DNA of 64,000 nt, from the NCBI RefSeq assembly GCF_003722315.1, contig NZ_CP033580.1, positions 991,001-1,055,000 of the forward strand, read 5' to 3'. The notes under the pieces are model-generated. The model was not told where the DNA came from. It saw nothing but the letters and a program-made list of their open reading frames with translations, and did no database searches. Origin of the DNA: Thermoanaerobacter ethanolicus JW 200 (GTDB lineage: Bacteria > Bacillota > Thermoanaerobacteria > Thermoanaerobacterales > Thermoanaerobacteraceae). Shown here in pieces: positions 16,158 through 61,784 of the stretch. The translations under genes and the position numbers were made by a program. Position 1 is the stretch's first letter; every line of letters begins with the position of its first letter.

Positions 16158-16258
16158 AAATCTTCTTTATTTCCCGTCCCGGTCTTGTGATCCTGGCGGG
16201 GCATATAAGCCCTATTAAGTTTTTATGAAGTGTGTGGTTCTATGAAGATACCACCACT
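16158..16258 (-). ncRNA. Candidate pan-motif leader RNA
   Basis: On minus the leader folds into two stems: GTGGT/ACCAC (within 16258-16229) and CCCGCC ... GGGACGGG (16201-16173). The second stem has unpaired A residues on both strands (CCAGG and GGGAC). The pan motif described upstream of panB genes in Firmicutes is a stem with two conserved bulged A residues. The position between a promoter and an attenuator, ahead of panG/B/C/D, fits. Assignment is by eye, not by a covariance model. Confidence 0.55.
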
Positions 16259-30870: not shown

Positions 30871-31020
30871 ACATGCTCTTATCAAGAGAGGTGGAGGGAA
30901 AGAGCCCGATGAAACCCAGCAACCTGTCCTATAGGACAAGGTGCTAATTCTCTCAGAAGCATGCTTCTGAAAGATGAGGGTATGGGCCTCTTCTTTTGGA
31001 AGGGGTTTTATTTTGTTTTT
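30871..31020 (+). ncRNA. SAM-I (S-box) riboswitch with terminator
   Basis: Canonical core: CTTATCAAGAGAGGTGGAGG, GCCCGATGAAACCCAGCAAC, AAGGTGCTAATTC and AAGATGAGGG (aptamer about 30875-30981). It is followed by a terminator hairpin CCTCTTC/GAAGGGG (30987-31006) and a T-rich tail. It should turn off metK transcription when SAM is abundant. Confidence 0.95.
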
Positions 31021-40566: not shown

Positions 40567-42167
40567 ATGATTATCAACCACAACTTAAGTGCTTTAAACG
40601 CATGGAGAGCACTTTCAATTAATACTGCCAACACACAAAAATCATTAGAGAAGCTCTCATCAGGTTACAGAATCAACAGAGCAGGAGATGACGCAGCAGG
40701 TCTTGCAATTTCAGAAAAAATGAGAGCACAAATAGCTGGACTTAATCAGGCTCAAAGAAATGCTCAAGACGGTATATCTTTAATTCAGACAGCAGAAGGT
40801 GCATTGAATGAGACACAGGCAATACTTCAGAGAATGAGAGAATTAGCTGTTCAATCCGCAAATGACACTAACACAGCATCAGATAGGGCACAAATTCAAA
40901 AAGAAATAGATCAATTAGCACAGGAACTTGGCCGTATAGGGCGAACTACTGAATTTAATACACAAAAACTTTTAGATGGTAGTTTCAAAGGTATTTTCCA
41001 AATTGGTGCGAATGAAAATCAAAACTTGTCACTTACAATAAATGATATGCGAGGTTATGCTTTACAGATAGTTGGAGGTGTTACTTACAATATCACAGGT
41101 ACCTTTTCAGCAGCAGCAAGTGGTTCGTTAATTAGTAATGGTACTTATACTGTTTCATATGATGGAACTAAATATCTTTTAAAAGACCAAGCAGGCAATA
41201 CTGTTGCGACCAGTACAGATGGTAAGAGTTATACAAATACAGCAGGCGACACGATTAGTTTTAGTGATCCGGTTATCTCTGGGCAGATTACAATTAATGG
41301 TACAAATGCAACGGGTGTAGCTACGGTCACCAATAATGGTTTAGATGCAGGCACTTACACCTATGATTTCACAAATAAAGTTCTTAAAAACGCTTCTGGT
41401 GAAGTCATTGGCAAGAGCACAGATGGCAAAACGTTTGTAGACCTGCAGGGTAATACTTTATTTACGCTAGGAGCTGCAGTAACTGCAGATACTACTTTTA
41501 CTATTGGTGGAATTGATGTTACAACACAAAGTGCAGCGAATGCAGCTATTACTAAAATTCAATCAGCTATTGATAAAGTATCTACAGAACGTTCTAAACT
41601 TGGTGCATATCAGAATAGACTTGAACATACAATCAATAACCTTGGCACAGCAGCAGAAAACCTGACAGCAGCAGAATCTCGTATAAGAGATGTAGACATG
41701 GCAAAAGAAATGATGGAATTCACAAAGAACAATATACTCAACCAAGCAGCGACAGCAATGCTTGAGAGAATGGCTGCATAAGCCATTTCTCACAGGCGTC
41801 CTGAGAAGCAATTCTCAGGAGTATCACCGGGTGAATTGCTGGAAAAGTCTTAAAGCCCTTTATACCACAGCATAGCCGGAAACGGCAGGTGCGATGGTTT
41901 GAAAAATAAAGGGATTGGCCAACCAGCAGCCAAGCCCCTGTGCCGAAAGGCTGGGGAAGGTTCAACGACCAGGACATACCACCTAAGGGCGTAAAGCCTA
42001 TGGCGATGAAGTCCGTAGGGTTAGCGATTTAACCCGAAGCGCCCGGCTCCTACCAGAATAAGTGACTGGTAGGATGAAGATATGGTCTATCCGGTTTCCG
42101 AAAGGAACCGGCCTGGAGAGCTCAGGCAAATCAGTTACCACAAACAGTATTGCAATTACTCAGATAA
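40567..42167 (+). CDS. hag: Flagellin, gene split by a group I intron (exons 40567-41762 and 42119-42167)
   Basis: Exon 1 gives the D0/D1 N-terminus (MIINHNLSALNAWRALSIN ... SSGYRINRAGDDAAGLAISEKMRAQ), a variable central region (about 170-320) and most of C-terminal D1/D0 (SRIRDVDMAKEMMEFTKNNILNQAATAML). Unspliced reading stops after 404 residues at TAA 41779-41781, lacking the normal tail. Removing 41763-42118 restores frame: ATGCT joined to AGCTCAG gives TAML-AQANQLPQTVLQLLR-stop, the classic flagellin end, 414 residues. Exon lengths (1196+49) sum to 415 codons. Regulated by sigma-D and probably CsrA/FliW. Confidence 0.95.
41763..42118 (+). ncRNA. Group I self-splicing-type intron in flagellin
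   Basis: 356 nt, no ORF inside. Exon 1 ends in U (41762) and the intron ends in G (42118), as in group I introns. The internal guide GGCGT (41795-41799) pairs with exon ATGCT (41758-41762) including the U-G wobble. P1 is extended by TGAGA/TCTCA and AATGGC/GCCATT. Conserved elements: P AATTGCTGGAAA (41834-41845), Q near 41921-41938, R TTCAACGACCAGGACA (41961-41976), S GAAGATATGGTC (42076-42087). P7 pairs GACCA (41967-41971) with TGGTC (42083-42087). P9 hairpin 42091-42111. Confidence 0.92.
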
Positions 42168-42191: not shown

Positions 42192-43205
42192 TCAAATCAT
42201 ATTTTTGGCTTTTAAGTCTCTTATTTTCCATACTATACCCCAATACGTTCTATTTAACTTATTAGCAATTTCTTTATCTGAGAAACCTCTTCTTTTAAAG
42301 TCAATAATTTTGTCTATCTCATCATTTGTATACGAAAGAAATTTCCGGCTATAAAAATTACTTAAATTTATTCTTTCATCGCTTTTACTTTCTTTAAGGA
42401 TTCTTTTATCAATATTCCATTTATAATCCATTTTGCTTATTTGAGAGACGTAGGGTTTCACAACATCTATAAAATTAAAAATTTCTTCTCTTTTCCCAAG
42501 TGTTAAAATATATTTTTTTCCATCTGGATGTCGTTTTAAATTGAATCTAATATTAAAAGTTTTATAAATGTGTTCTTGCAATATAATATTTTCTTCTTCA
42601 CTAAAATTCAGTGTATATAATGTTATAATAGGGTTAACAGTTATATTAGGTTTATTATTTTTTGAAATAACCAAAGTACCATCATCCATATATAAACATG
42701 CAAGCCCTACTGGTTCATTGAGCAATTTGATGTTGTCATAAGTGATTGTTTTCTTTTTATTAATATAAAATTTTTCATACAAAGCAGAGAATATTGGATG
42801 TGATATTGATTTTAAAGTGTTATTTTTATTAATTTTGAATCCTAAATCTTTTAGTTGTGTACATTTCCATAATCTATATTCATATTGTTCTTGACAAAAG
42901 TGTTCTCTATAATAAGCATTTCTGCCTCTTGGTGCATATGACAAATTTCCATCACCTAAAATACTACCGACAATTATATTTAATTGATAATTGGTTGGAT
43001 GTAAATCTGGAATACTCGAGAGATATTTAGTTTCTTTTGCTTTTAAAAGTAATTCATGCTGTTTTTTCATATACTCTTTACTTTTTCTGATATTATATTT
43101 TGATGCCAATCTCCTGACTGATTGCTCAGATATACCGAGATACTTTGCTAAAACTTTATTGTCTGTACTTGGATAAAATTTTTGCAAATATTCTAATTTG
43201 TCCAT
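42192..43205 (-). CDS. LAGLIDADG-family homing endonuclease, free-standing
   Basis: 337 residues. Two LAGLIDADG-type helices are visible, IIVGSILGDGNLS (about 78-90) and PVGLACLYMDDGTLV (about 165-180), so it can act as a monomer. An N-terminal HTH (LAKYLGISEQSVRRLASKYNI) and a C-terminal HTH-like segment (FSDKEIANKLNRTYWGIVWKIRDLK) probably extend DNA contact. It lies 24 nt outside the 3' exon of the intron-split flagellin, on the opposite strand. It likely drives spread of the intron by cutting intron-less flagellin alleles. Confidence 0.85.
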   Translation of the reverse strand: MDKLEYLQKFYPSTDNKVLAKYLGISEQSVRRLASKYNIRKSKEYMKKQHELLLKAKETKYLSSIPDLHPTNYQLNIIVGSILGDGNLSYAPRGRNAYYREHFCQEQYEYRLWKCTQLKDLGFKINKNNTLKSISHPIFSALYEKFYINKKKTITYDNIKLLNEPVGLACLYMDDGTLVISKNNKPNITVNPIITLYTLNFSEEENIILQEHIYKTFNIRFNLKRHPDGKKYILTLGKREEIFNFIDVVKPYVSQISKMDYKWNIDKRILKESKSDERINLSNFYSRKFLSYTNDEIDKIIDFKRRGFSDKEIANKLNRTYWGIVWKIRDLKAKNMI

Positions 43206-58986: not shown

Positions 58987-59062
58987 TCTAAAAAGAAGGA
59001 ATTTTAAATTTTGTATAGAATATATTTTTAGTGTGGACAAATTTTAATAGGGTGTGAAGATA

Positions 59063-59704
59063 ATGGGTGAAATAACAAAAGATACAGTAAATTCGATGGA
59101 AGAGTATATAAATAAAATTCAAGGAGTACTATCCAGTAGGGTAGTTGTAGAGAATGGTGAGATAACAGAAATTCACGTGTTGGCTGACAGTACAAGGAAT
59201 GCAAAGCAGATTGCAAGAGATGTGCAATCTGTCATAATGGCGCAGTTTGGAATTGATATAAATCACAAGATTGTCAGTGTAGCGCAAATTGATACTGGAG
59301 AAAATCTCCAAGGAGAACAGAGGCTTGTTTTTTCAAGCTATTCATTTATAAATAATGGACTTACCAGTGAAGCAAGAGTTATCCTCACAAGAGGCGATGA
59401 GGTTTTTGAAGGATATGCTGAAGGACCTAATACTGCAAGTAATAAATATAAAATAATTGCCAATGCTACACTGGACTCTATTTCTAAATTGATTCCCAGA
59501 AACCATTTATTTTTATTGGAAGATGTCGATATATTTAATATAGCAAAAAACAGGATAATAGTTGTAGGGGTTACTCATGTGACAAATAACCAGGAGGAAC
59601 TCCTTACCGGGTCTTGTCTTATAAAAAAAGATGAAGGAGAAGCTGTGGTAAAAGCCACATTGGATGCTGTTAACAGGCGTGTAATGTCAATTACGTCCCG
59701 TTAG
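59063..59704 (+). CDS. Conserved protein of unknown function
   Basis: 213 residues, soluble, no signal peptide or membrane helix. The N-terminal part (EEYINKIQGVLSSRVVVENGEITEIHVLADSTRNAKQIARDVQSVIMAQFGIDINHKIVSVAQID) has an alternating beta-alpha pattern that recalls small ferredoxin-like or KH-like folds. The C-terminal part is a second alpha/beta domain (RVILTRGDEVFEGYAEGPNTASNKYKIIANATLDSISKLI). I recognise no named family. ATG 59063 has AGGGTG 8 nt upstream. The genes between hpf and secA do not reveal a role. Confidence 0.75.
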   Translation: MGEITKDTVNSMEEYINKIQGVLSSRVVVENGEITEIHVLADSTRNAKQIARDVQSVIMAQFGIDINHKIVSVAQIDTGENLQGEQRLVFSSYSFINNGLTSEARVILTRGDEVFEGYAEGPNTASNKYKIIANATLDSISKLIPRNHLFLLEDVDIFNIAKNRIIVVGVTHVTNNQEELLTGSCLIKKDEGEAVVKATLDAVNRRVMSITSR

Positions 59705-59720
59705 TTATTTTAGTTATTTT

Positions 59721-59912
59721 AACACCCAAACCGCTTAAAAGTTGCTTAGCGTAGCGTTACCTGAAGCCTAAGGGCAGAAGAGTTATCACAGCAAAGGAGG
59801 GTTTCAGGATGAACAAAGCGACACTTATAAAAATATTGCTGGCTTTAATGGCACTCGCATTAGCAGGAGGTGCAAATGTTGCATGGGGTTAAGGCGGTTT
59901 GAGGTGTTTTTT
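59721..59912 (+). ncRNA. Structured small transcript closed by an 18-bp stem, enclosing a peptide gene
   Basis: The left arm AACACC, CAAACCGC, TTAA (59721-59738) pairs with TTAA, GCGGTTTG, GGTGTT (59889-59908) with single-base bulges, followed by a T-run (to 59912). The arms bracket about 150 nt that contain a ribosome site and a 27-codon frame. The 3' arm overlaps the stop codon and works as a terminator. Confidence 0.55.
59809..59892 (+). CDS. 27-residue hydrophobic peptide
   Basis: MNKATLIKILLALMALALAG followed by GANVAWG. A strong AAAGGAGGG site lies 9 nt upstream. The peptide is a basic N-terminus plus one hydrophobic helix ending in small residues, like a signal peptide, a membrane-active peptide or a peptide-pheromone precursor. 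The stop codon lies in the 3' arm of the surrounding stem. No homologue is recognised. It is located between the unknown 213-residue protein and an HD-GYP gene. Confidence 0.55.
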   Translation: MNKATLIKILLALMALALAGGANVAWG

Positions 59913-59935
59913 AGATTGAAAATAGGAGGTTTATT

Positions 59936-61210
59936 ATGCTTAACAAAAGAGTAAAAATATATATTTCTATAATAATAATAGTGGGATTATTTTTTATTAT
60001 ATATTCTATTTTAAACGTCCCTACAAATAGAATTGTAGATATAATTCTATTTGGATTTTTTGCTGCTTTAGCTGAATCAATGCCATTATATGTAACAAAA
60101 GAATTAACTGTATCGGTTGCTTTCGCTGTTGATTTAATGGCGGTGCTTATTTTTGGACCATATGAAGGTTCTTTAATTGCAGCAATAGGTGTGGGATTTC
60201 AGGTTGGTAAATATATGGATGGCAAAATAAGACATATTTTTAATTTTCCTTATTACAAGACTTTATTTAATATATCTCAATTAGCTCTGAGTGTTGGTAT
60301 TGGTGGATTAATATATAGATATACTGGTGGTGTAAATACAAATTATATATATCCTAAATATATTCTTTCTGCATTGTTAGCTGCAATGATATATTACTTC
60401 TTAAACACTATTATTGTGGCTGTATTAGTGTCTTTACTAACTAATAGACGAATTAAATATGTTTTAACAAAAGATTTTAAATGGATGATTCCAAACTTTC
60501 TCTTCCTTGCCTTTGTAGGTATAGTTATGTCAGAGGCTTTTATAAGAATAGGATACATAAGCTTCATTTTACTCTTTATACCTCTTTTGATGATACGCTA
60601 TATGTTTAAGCTTTACATAGACTCAAAGCAGTCTTATTACGACACAATAAATGTGCTTGTAAAGGCTCTTGATGCAAAGGATAAATATACAGCGGGTCAT
60701 TCAAAAAACGTTGAAAAAATTGCGGCTTTACTTTGTAGAGAATTTGGTTTTAGTGAGTCTCACACTGAAATGGTGAGGATTGCATCACTTTTACATGACA
60801 TAGGAAAGATTGGAGTAAAAGAAGAGGTTTTAAATAAGCCAGGGAAGTTAACTGATGAAGAATTAAGCATAATAAAAGAACATCCCCAAAAAGGCTATGA
60901 AATTTTAAGAGATGTTCCGGCTTTAAAGGAGGCCTCTCTATGGGTGAAATACCATCACGAGTGGTACGATGGAAGTGGATATCCCGATGGCATAAAAGGT
61001 GACGAAATACCATTGGAAGCGCAGATACTTTCCCTCGCAGACGTTTTCGATGCTTTAGTTTCAGACAGGCCCTACCGAAAGGCTTTTTCACAAGAGGAAG
61101 CTTATAAAATAATTTTAGAACATGAAAGGACGCAGTTTAGCCCTAAAATAATAAACGCCTTTAAAAAAGCTTTTGAAAAGAATAGGGAGGAGTTTAAGCA
61201 TGATATTTGA
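59936..61210 (+). CDS. Membrane HD-GYP domain protein (putative cyclic-di-GMP phosphodiesterase)
   Basis: 424 residues. N-terminal membrane sensor with about six to seven helices (1-215) containing GPYEGSLIAAIGVGFQVGKYMDG, then an HD-GYP domain: HSKNVEKIAALLCREFGF, LLHDIGKIGVKEEVLNKPGKLTDEE, YHHEWYDGSGYPDGIKGDEIPLEAQILSLADVFDAL. The metal and GYP residues are intact, so activity on cyclic di-GMP or a related dinucleotide is likely. AGGAGG precedes the ATG. Its end overlaps the DUF5317 gene. Confidence 0.92.
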   Translation: MLNKRVKIYISIIIIVGLFFIIYSILNVPTNRIVDIILFGFFAALAESMPLYVTKELTVSVAFAVDLMAVLIFGPYEGSLIAAIGVGFQVGKYMDGKIRHIFNFPYYKTLFNISQLALSVGIGGLIYRYTGGVNTNYIYPKYILSALLAAMIYYFLNTIIVAVLVSLLTNRRIKYVLTKDFKWMIPNFLFLAFVGIVMSEAFIRIGYISFILLFIPLLMIRYMFKLYIDSKQSYYDTINVLVKALDAKDKYTAGHSKNVEKIAALLCREFGFSESHTEMVRIASLLHDIGKIGVKEEVLNKPGKLTDEELSIIKEHPQKGYEILRDVPALKEASLWVKYHHEWYDGSGYPDGIKGDEIPLEAQILSLADVFDALVSDRPYRKAFSQEEAYKIILEHERTQFSPKIINAFKKAFEKNREEFKHDI

Positions 61211-61784
61211 TTCACTTGGTGCTTCTCTAATTTATGGAACTTTAAGAAGAGGAAAAATCAGCGGAATCGCTGATATTGACATAAAAAAACCCAGCCTTTT
61301 TATAGCTGCTTTTGTTTTGGAGTTTGGTATGTTAAACCTTGCTAATAAGTTTCACGTCATTATGGAATACCGGTCTTATATCCACTTCTTTGTTTATCTT
61401 TTGCTTTTCATAGGATTGTGGTACAATAGAGATAACAAGTATTTTAGAATAATAAGTGTGGGAGTGCTTTTGAACTTTATTGTAATATTTGCCAACGGAG
61501 GAAGAATGCCTGTCTCTGTTGATGCTTTAAAGGCAGCGGGACTTAATAATCTCATCCCTGACCTTCAGGCAAATAAAATTGCTACACATCAGGTTTTGAC
61601 AAGTTCTACACGGTTAAAATTTTTAGCAGATGTCTTAGTGTTGCCGAAACCTTATCCATTGCCAAAAACCTTTAGCATAGGAGATTTTATAATGGCGACA
61701 GGCACATTTTTACTTGTTACAAATGCTATGCTTAAAAAGGTGAAGAATCATGACGGCACAAGAGCGAAGGAACAAAATAGTTGA
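61200..61784 (+). CDS. DUF5317 membrane protein
   Basis: 194 residues with about four membrane helices (PSLFIAAFVLEFGML, YIHFFVYLLLFIGLWY, IISVGVLLNFIVIFANGGRMPVS, FSIGDFIMATGTFLLV). The DUF5317 hallmark is NGGRMPVS followed by a luminal stretch with THQVLTSSTRLKFLADVLVLPKPYPLP. The ATG at 61200 has GGGAGG 9 nt upstream and overlaps the HD-GYP stop by 11 nt. Co-occurrence with HD-GYP genes suggests a joint signalling role. Confidence 0.85.
   Translation: MIFDSLGASLIYGTLRRGKISGIADIDIKKPSLFIAAFVLEFGMLNLANKFHVIMEYRSYIHFFVYLLLFIGLWYNRDNKYFRIISVGVLLNFIVIFANGGRMPVSVDALKAAGLNNLIPDLQANKIATHQVLTSSTRLKFLADVLVLPKPYPLPKTFSIGDFIMATGTFLLVTNAMLKKVKNHDGTRAKEQNS

Follow-up and report, generated by a model that had tools for sequence, protein, structure and literature searches.

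A peptide with an allelic tail as a candidate signal for the membrane HD-GYP protein encoded beside it

Introduction

Peptide signalling with pherotypes is already known. In ComQXPA, Agr and ComCDE a small precursor gene lies beside a membrane receptor gene, and the variable mature peptide and the sensor are exchanged with conservation of the output and the flanks. SHP/Rgg and other short hydrophobic pheromones carry their signal in the C-terminal residues and have cytoplasmic regulators as receptors. In RpfR and RpfC/RpfG, diffusible fatty-acid quorum signals act on c-di-GMP phosphodiesterases, in RpfR directly. To our knowledge, the ligands of the membrane sensors in many c-di-GMP enzymes, HD-GYP proteins among them, are unknown, and the coupling of population signals to c-di-GMP in Gram-positive anaerobes is largely open. 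PMC11109136 describes the S-component fold, with an extra N-terminal helix, in bacterial receptors (5TMR histidine kinases), and also GGDEF/EAL fusions.

Here we describe a locus of Thermoanaerobacter ethanolicus JW 200 in which a short peptide gene, enclosed in a structured RNA, precedes the gene for a membrane HD-GYP protein. The window analysed was a stretch of 64,000 nucleotides.

Results and Discussion

A peptide gene linked to an HD-GYP gene

An initial annotation had described a strong ribosome site and a 27-codon hydrophobic peptide inside a unit closed by an 18-pair stem, directly preceding a membrane HD-GYP gene. The ribosome site and the frame were borne out (Shine-Dalgarno AAGGAGGG, ATG at 59809, stop codon TAA at 59890-59892), every element of the stem unit was found letter for letter at 59721-59912, and the HD-GYP gene does follow, starting at 59936. 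The features of the locus, all on the forward strand (+), are as follows.

59054-59704 (+): up216, a conserved upstream gene, used as a flank control
59721-59738 (+): 5' arm of the outer stem P1, made up of AACACC (59721-59726), CAAACCGC (59727-59734) and TTAA (59735-59738)
59748-59756 (+): tandem motif AGCGTAGCG, of the AGCGnAGCG form in 42 loci
59760-59768 (+): CCTGAAGCC, complementary to GGGTTTCAGG (59799-59808) at the ribosome site, with which it can pair; only part of the loci keep this pairing
59794-59801 (+): Shine-Dalgarno sequence AAGGAGGG
59809-59892 (+): 27-codon open reading frame MNKATLIKILLALMALALAGGANVAWG
59878-59889 (+): variable tail codons 24-27 (VAWG), where the allelic island starts
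59889-59908 (+): 3' arm of P1, made up of TTAA (59889-59892), GCGGTTTG (59894-59901) and GGTGTT (59903-59908)
59907-59912 (+): T-run after the 3' arm of P1
59936-60601 (+): HD-GYP protein, membrane sensor half (MASE9; predicted S-component fold), in the allelic island
60602-61210 (+): HD-GYP catalytic half (HD..GK, HH and GYP motifs), conserved between alleles
61200-61784 (+): DUF5317 membrane protein, a regular downstream neighbour, used as a flank control

Its own genome, a single contig of 2.91 Mb, has one copy of the peptide, and a repeat or a mobile unit was rejected on that ground. The initial annotation had proposed searching relatives for the peptide upstream of HD-GYP orthologues and held that a frame not conserved among them would count against it. 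The frame is conserved: with tblastn at E<=1 it was recovered from 41 of 101 relatives, and none of the 19 genomes of the same family lacked it. A profile search for the peptide core (..LAGGAN..W) matched 79 of 398 genomes of the phylum at E<=1e-3, and 198 of the 398 at E<=1, many of these by chance. The peptide belongs to no Pfam or NCBIfam family.

Among the loci inspected the precursor is 21-29 residues long. In a 24-row alignment GGA is invariant and follows mostly small or hydrophobic residues; those before GG are not always alanine. Amino-acid changes cluster in the tail and the helix changes little. The two best-sampled genera each have a nearly constant helix, followed by the tails VAWG, VSWG, VSWV, YAWG, LMWG, LKWT and LTWH in the first and LTWG, YTWG, FTWG, LSWQ, LQWN and LVWE in the second. 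A metagenome-assembled genome (MAG) labelled Candidatus Aerophobetes (L196) has the peptide MRAKIIKVLIAIAALVLAGGANFHFG near a contig end, with no AGCG motif in the 120 bases upstream.

We took 60 peptide loci together with flanks of at most 5 kb each way. An HD-GYP reading frame follows the peptide in all 60, 56 of them found by a motif script, which took a later gene in at least one locus (largest gap 1361 bases), and four (L104, L113, L130 and L134) from the reading frames. As in pherotype loci, the peptide gene thus adjoins a membrane receptor-like gene in 60 of 60. Upstream lie up216, which matched nothing in Pfam or NCBIfam at the cut-off, and hpf; downstream lies DUF5317 and, further on, secA. 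In most of the 60 loci up216 again precedes the peptide, with which it may share a pathway. Of the 79 genomes whose peptide match reaches E<=1e-3, 77 carry DUF5317, in 68 cases within 4.5 kb on the same contig. Conversely, 28 of 114 DUF5317 genomes lack the peptide among the matches listed, a count that leaves out the four weakest DUF5317 matches and most peptide matches with E above 0.03.

Twenty further DUF5317 loci were taken, most from genomes in which the peptide match was absent or weak. Eleven of them carry an HD-GYP gene of this kind, and a short hydrophobic reading frame precedes it in all 11 (six found by pattern, five by eye), some with looser motifs such as FASSANFMWL and LAAGSSVQVSC. 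No HD-GYP gene was seen on that strand in the remaining nine. Eight loci of the peptide set (L090, L095, L100, L102, L118, L128, L131 and L142) have at least one extra HD-GYP gene directly behind the peptide-linked one, without a peptide match of its own; these extra genes may give the same signal a second output. We identified no signal peptidase or export gene, and recognised no dedicated processing enzyme (ComQ, AgrB) or kinase/regulator pair among the neighbouring genes.

Elsewhere in the window, a group I intron (41778-42110; 77 bits, Rfam) matches at the 3' end of a flagellin-like reading frame (40567-41781), so that the flagellin gene appears to be split near its last codons. It adjoins a 337-residue reading frame on the reverse strand (42192-43205), which, judging by its sequence, may be an intron endonuclease. 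A pan motif (16170-16257, reverse strand) and a SAM riboswitch (30876-30980, forward strand) score above their Rfam gathering thresholds.

The HD-GYP protein and its sensor

The domain search gave MASE9 followed by HD_5, and Pfam HD_5 is present in nine of nine aligned proteins. HDIGK, HHE and GYP are invariant in the nine-row alignment. An AlphaFold2 model built on nine sequences (pLDDT 83.7) has a helix at residues 4-27, membrane helices up to residue 205 and a long helix leading into the HD-GYP domain, and its catalytic part matches the solved HD-GYP structures 4mcw, 9rbz and 4r8z. Motifs and fold point to an HD-GYP phosphodiesterase, which would hydrolyse c-di-GMP or cGAMP.

By sequence the sensor matches MASE9 only. 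Residues 27-208 of the model match ECF S components with Z of about 10-15, at or slightly above the chance level of helical bundles. The S-component matches include 4hzu_S (Z 14.9, rmsd 3.0, 160 aligned), RibU 5kc0 (Z 13.4), FolT and BioY (13.3) and ThiT (12.6); a metal-transporter subunit matches with Z 14.3 over residues 1-207. Many S components for different substrates rank together and span the whole sensor domain. The sensor is therefore predicted to have the fold of the S components of vitamin transporters, with one extra N-terminal helix. Variable positions become rare after about residue 222.

Tail and sensor form an allelic island

We compared pairs using one genome per species, with the sensor defined as HD-GYP residues 1-225. 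Along the DNA of close relatives, identity is mostly 93-100% until the peptide gene ends, drops to 55-90% between about +75 and about +800, and then rises again. The island covers the last peptide codons and the membrane sensor, and the catalytic domain is near-identical again. Pairs with different tails often have sensors only 55-80% identical, with mostly 92-99% identity in the catalytic half and mostly 92-100% in up216. For G012/G015 (LTWG/YTWG) the values are 100% for up216, 67% for the sensor and 99% for the catalytic half.

Genomes that share a tail mostly have similar sensors (93% identity for VSWG, 94% for LQWN, 96% for LTWG). The same-tail pair G012/G017 has sensors 96% identical, and no comparable drop in identity is seen in this pair, G013/G016 or G002/G005. 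The LMWG pair G006/G008 has 85% identity in the sensor and 84-85% in the catalytic half. Tail and sensor thus co-vary and the flanks and the output are conserved, as in pherotypes, with one exception: G009 and G015 share the tail NYTWG and their sensors are only 76% identical.

Synonymous divergence is also raised within the island. Among 17 chosen pairs, dS in up216, sensor and catalytic half was 0.071, 0.680 and 0.026 for G000/G007 and 0.076, 1.180 and 0.485 for G012/G015. This indicates replacement by old, diverged alleles and not merely faster protein change. In the same 17 pairs the tails change mostly through amino-acid-changing substitutions.

The pattern recurs in other families, where 20 of 32 planned genus pairs were computed (the peptide pattern missed the other 12). 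The difference between catalytic and sensor identity was -6 to 10 points in the five same-tail pairs and 11 to 42 points in the fifteen different-tail pairs. For G085/G039, with tails GGANARW and GGASTRWV, up216 is 100%, the sensor 55%, the catalytic half 97% and DUF5317 99% identical. For 1.5 kb upstream, identity between their DNA is 96-100%; divergence sets in at the GGA codon, and identity remains at 53-67% to about +600 and is back to at least 94% at +700 to +1000. Between Fervidicola ferrireducens (YRFGG) and Thermovorax subterraneus (YRLG), identity is 62% in the sensor and 96% in the catalytic part; for Thermovorax and a Tepidanaerobacteraceae MAG, both YRLG, the figures are 84% and 98%.

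We then permuted tail types among genomes, with sensor identity regressed on catalytic identity; G018 was excluded because its HD-GYP gene is cut by a contig end. Tail distance correlated with sensor identity in both genera (r -0.66, p 0.0012, nine genomes; r -0.89, p 0.0004, eight genomes of the second genus), though one recombination tract carries the adjacent tail and sensor, so that correlation alone cannot prove contact. Tail distance showed no relation to catalytic identity in either genus (p 0.10 and 0.38). A control HD-GYP protein has a 422-residue sensor that is 97-100% identical in G012/G015, G015/G017 and G011/G013, against 65-68% for the peptide-linked sensor. It is a poor control in G000/G007 and G007/G001, where it is itself divergent (sensor 78%, catalytic 85%). 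The second HD-GYP protein of the same operon, which has no peptide of its own, has a sensor 89% identical in L095/L128, against 60% for the first, and 78% against 60% in L095/L100; distant pairs show equal divergence.

A proposed peptide signal sensed by the HD-GYP protein

We propose, with a probability of roughly 0.6, that the peptide is a pherotype-like signal sensed directly by a c-di-GMP phosphodiesterase through a sensor of the S-component fold. A signalling-peptide gene with the HD-GYP protein as its receptor was one option of the initial annotation, and linkage, the allelic island and the correlation of tail with sensor support it strongly. The precursor would consist of a fixed membrane part (a positive start, a hydrophobic helix and AGGA) followed by a variable tail, about 3-6 residues long, in which tryptophan is usually at or near the end. 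After export, and perhaps processing, the tail would probably be released or displayed outside the cell, where it may pass between cells. As the helix is fixed and the tail variable, the linkage strict and the exchange of tail and sensor joint, we suggest that the tail is the cognate ligand, binding the outward side of the sensor encoded downstream. Binding would set the phosphodiesterase activity, in one direction or the other, so that the level of cyclic di-GMP, or a related dinucleotide, changes in one step without a kinase. Tail and sensor are swapped between relatives as an allelic cassette, as in pherotypes, and the catalytic half and the flanks stay.

The same linkage and the hydrophobic helix with its GG pattern would also suit a membrane micropeptide that is not secreted and serves its own cell as a small HD-GYP subunit. 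The helix would pack on the sensor and the tail would lock or tune it, with no signal between cells. Co-variation of tail and sensor is expected from any direct contact and fits this too. Such a subunit seems unlikely, however, as it leaves unexplained both the many long-lived allelic types with raised dS and the exchange of cassettes between near-identical genomes. Moreover, the amino-acid changes gather in the tail, with little change in the helix.

The RNA around the peptide gene

The outer stem P1 has 6+8+4 pairs with two single-base bulges (59893 and 59902), and the stop codon of the peptide sits within its 3' arm. The 5' arm begins 16 bases past the upstream stop codon, that of up216, and the HD-GYP start codon comes after the 3' arm with a gap of only 27 bases. 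The element folds with -58.1 kcal/mol, against -49.1 +- 3.9 for shuffled sequences (z -2.3; 4 of 200 shuffles equalled it), and P1 is present in both the minimum-energy and the centroid structures. Of 59 loci, 42 have a significant P1 helix, equalled by no more than 2 of 200 shuffles, and there are 57 distinct 5' arms; arm pairs that differ in sequence include GGGCCGAC/GTCGGCCC, TTGGATCGGCAGG/CCTGCCGATCCAA and AGGGGTCGTATG/CGTACGACCCCT. P1 fails the shuffle test in the other 17, among them L099, L104, L112, L124 and L125.

Between the end of up216 and the peptide gene come the 5' arm, the AGCGnAGCG motif and, often, a hairpin that has UAGCGG in the loop and GAG after it. This hairpin, which lies before the ribosome site, shows double changes at five of its six pairs. 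In 29 rows with trimmed loops, 98.9% of its cells are paired, against 71.0% in shuffles and at most 64.9% in slid versions, a figure biased upward because the rows were picked for pairing; by itself the hairpin is significant in only 15 of 57 loci. A helix sequestering the ribosome site was expected in all 59 loci and was seen in part of them (mean z 1.39; z above 2 in 15 of 59), and it is clear in some lineages only.

The MAFFT alignment of the element was too uneven for a covariance model. Neither the window nor 20 loci gave an Rfam 15 match that covers the element; the sole match in those loci was a Thr_leader in L069, away from the element, and the reading as a known riboswitch was dropped. 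CsrA or TRAP sites in the AGCGG repeats were also considered and dropped, as neither GGA nor GAG is kept among the variants.

P1 is a terminator-like structure that leaves little room for a promoter behind it. A promoter-like match at 59910-59937 overlaps the gap before the HD-GYP gene, and such matches are no commoner than in shuffles. With only 27 bases available, HD-GYP transcripts probably read through the terminator. The RNA would thus most likely set the dosage of peptide and enzyme through this read-through, to which a paired ribosome site would add in some lineages.

P1 with its T-run, so close to the HD-GYP start, would also suit a cis-acting leader. Translation of the peptide frame, or a ribosome paused near its end, would open P1 and let transcription run on into the HD-GYP gene, and the peptide would have no task afterwards. 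The conservation of P1 in 42 of 59 loci despite changed sequences, the covarying hairpin and the pairing of the ribosome site in some lineages all speak for such a leader. L124 (G020) and L125 (G022), however, lack both P1 and the AGCG motif and have a separate hairpin past the peptide stop codon, yet their peptide and HD-GYP genes are still adjacent. By eye, the region that replaces the structured leader there resembles a plain promoter. The spacing between stop codon and 3' arm, which ranges from overlap to more than 30 bases, is too variable for a single ribosome-blocking rule, and ribosome stalling at the stop codon was rejected as a universal switch. Nor does a leader require the tail to vary with the sensor protein. 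The leader peptide suggested by the initial annotation may therefore be partly true, given the terminator-like P1 and the scarce promoter room, but cannot be the whole story, since the RNA is gone in L124 and L125 and both genes remain; as the sole function of the peptide it is distinctly improbable. The RNA looks like an old regulatory dress and the peptide like the constant.

Hitch-hiking and toxin readings

The sensor could instead diversify for a reason of its own, such as another outside ligand or phage, with the tail changing as the edge of the exchanged tract. The tail codons do adjoin this tract, and G009/G015, with the same tail and different sensors, fit such hitch-hiking. We give it little credence, as the tract starts at or in the variable peptide codons in lineages of different families, the changes in the tail mostly alter amino acids, and the peptide is kept with the HD-GYP gene across the phylum.

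A type I toxin mRNA with 5'-3' closure, also considered initially for its short hydrophobic peptide and long-range closing stem, is hardly credible for a single-copy gene with a conserved position and the same partner across the phylum, whose tail diversifies with the sensor and for which no antisense RNA family was found in Rfam. Promoter-like sites were no commoner than in shuffles.

Wider meaning and comparison with known systems

A broader form of the proposed signal is that the locus represents a phylum-wide one-component family for quorum sensing or kin recognition. The allelic peptide would be the direct ligand of a sensor-phosphodiesterase of the S-component fold, tail and sensor would be swapped as a pherotype cassette, and expression would run through a structured RNA with the peptide gene inside its own terminator. 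We consider the odds of this whole picture to be about even.

Our literature search, outside which most subscription papers lay, returned no paper on this peptide, none that treats DUF5317 together with HD-GYP, and none with an HD-GYP protein as the sensor of a peptide pheromone; the word "pheromone" is absent from the accessible part of PMC8846402, which cites a paper on RpfR. A c-di-GMP phosphodiesterase as a direct receptor, the S-component-like sensor and the phylum-wide linked peptide are not described in the literature searched. Since Pfam and NCBIfam have no entry for the peptide, and Rfam none that matches the RNA, both may escape standard annotation. If the proposal is right, a whole class of sensors would have a genetically encoded ligand that can be read from the adjacent gene, and a peptide would reach a second messenger directly, without a kinase. 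The allelic cassettes supply ready-made cognate and non-cognate pairs.

The 5TMR receptors, as described in PMC11109136, resemble this protein in their S-component-like membrane sensor with an extra N-terminal helix, and differ from the MASE9 family, HD-GYP output and linked peptide gene found here. In the proposed reading, a cell-density signal controls a c-di-GMP phosphodiesterase, as with RpfR and RpfC/RpfG; those systems differ in their fatty-acid signal and their PAS or kinase-module sensors, and have neither a linked peptide gene nor allelic types. The precursor resembles the SHP/Rgg pheromones in size, in hydrophobicity and in the placing of the signal in the C-terminal residues, but the linked protein is a membrane enzyme and not a cytoplasmic receptor. 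As in ComQXPA, Agr and ComCDE, a precursor gene lies beside a receptor-like gene, and the variable tail and the sensor are exchanged while the output and the flanks are conserved. Unlike ComQXPA and Agr, with their ComQ and AgrB, this locus has no processing enzyme or kinase/regulator pair that we could recognise among its neighbours, and in place of the histidine kinase receptors of all three systems the output here is an HD-GYP phosphodiesterase.
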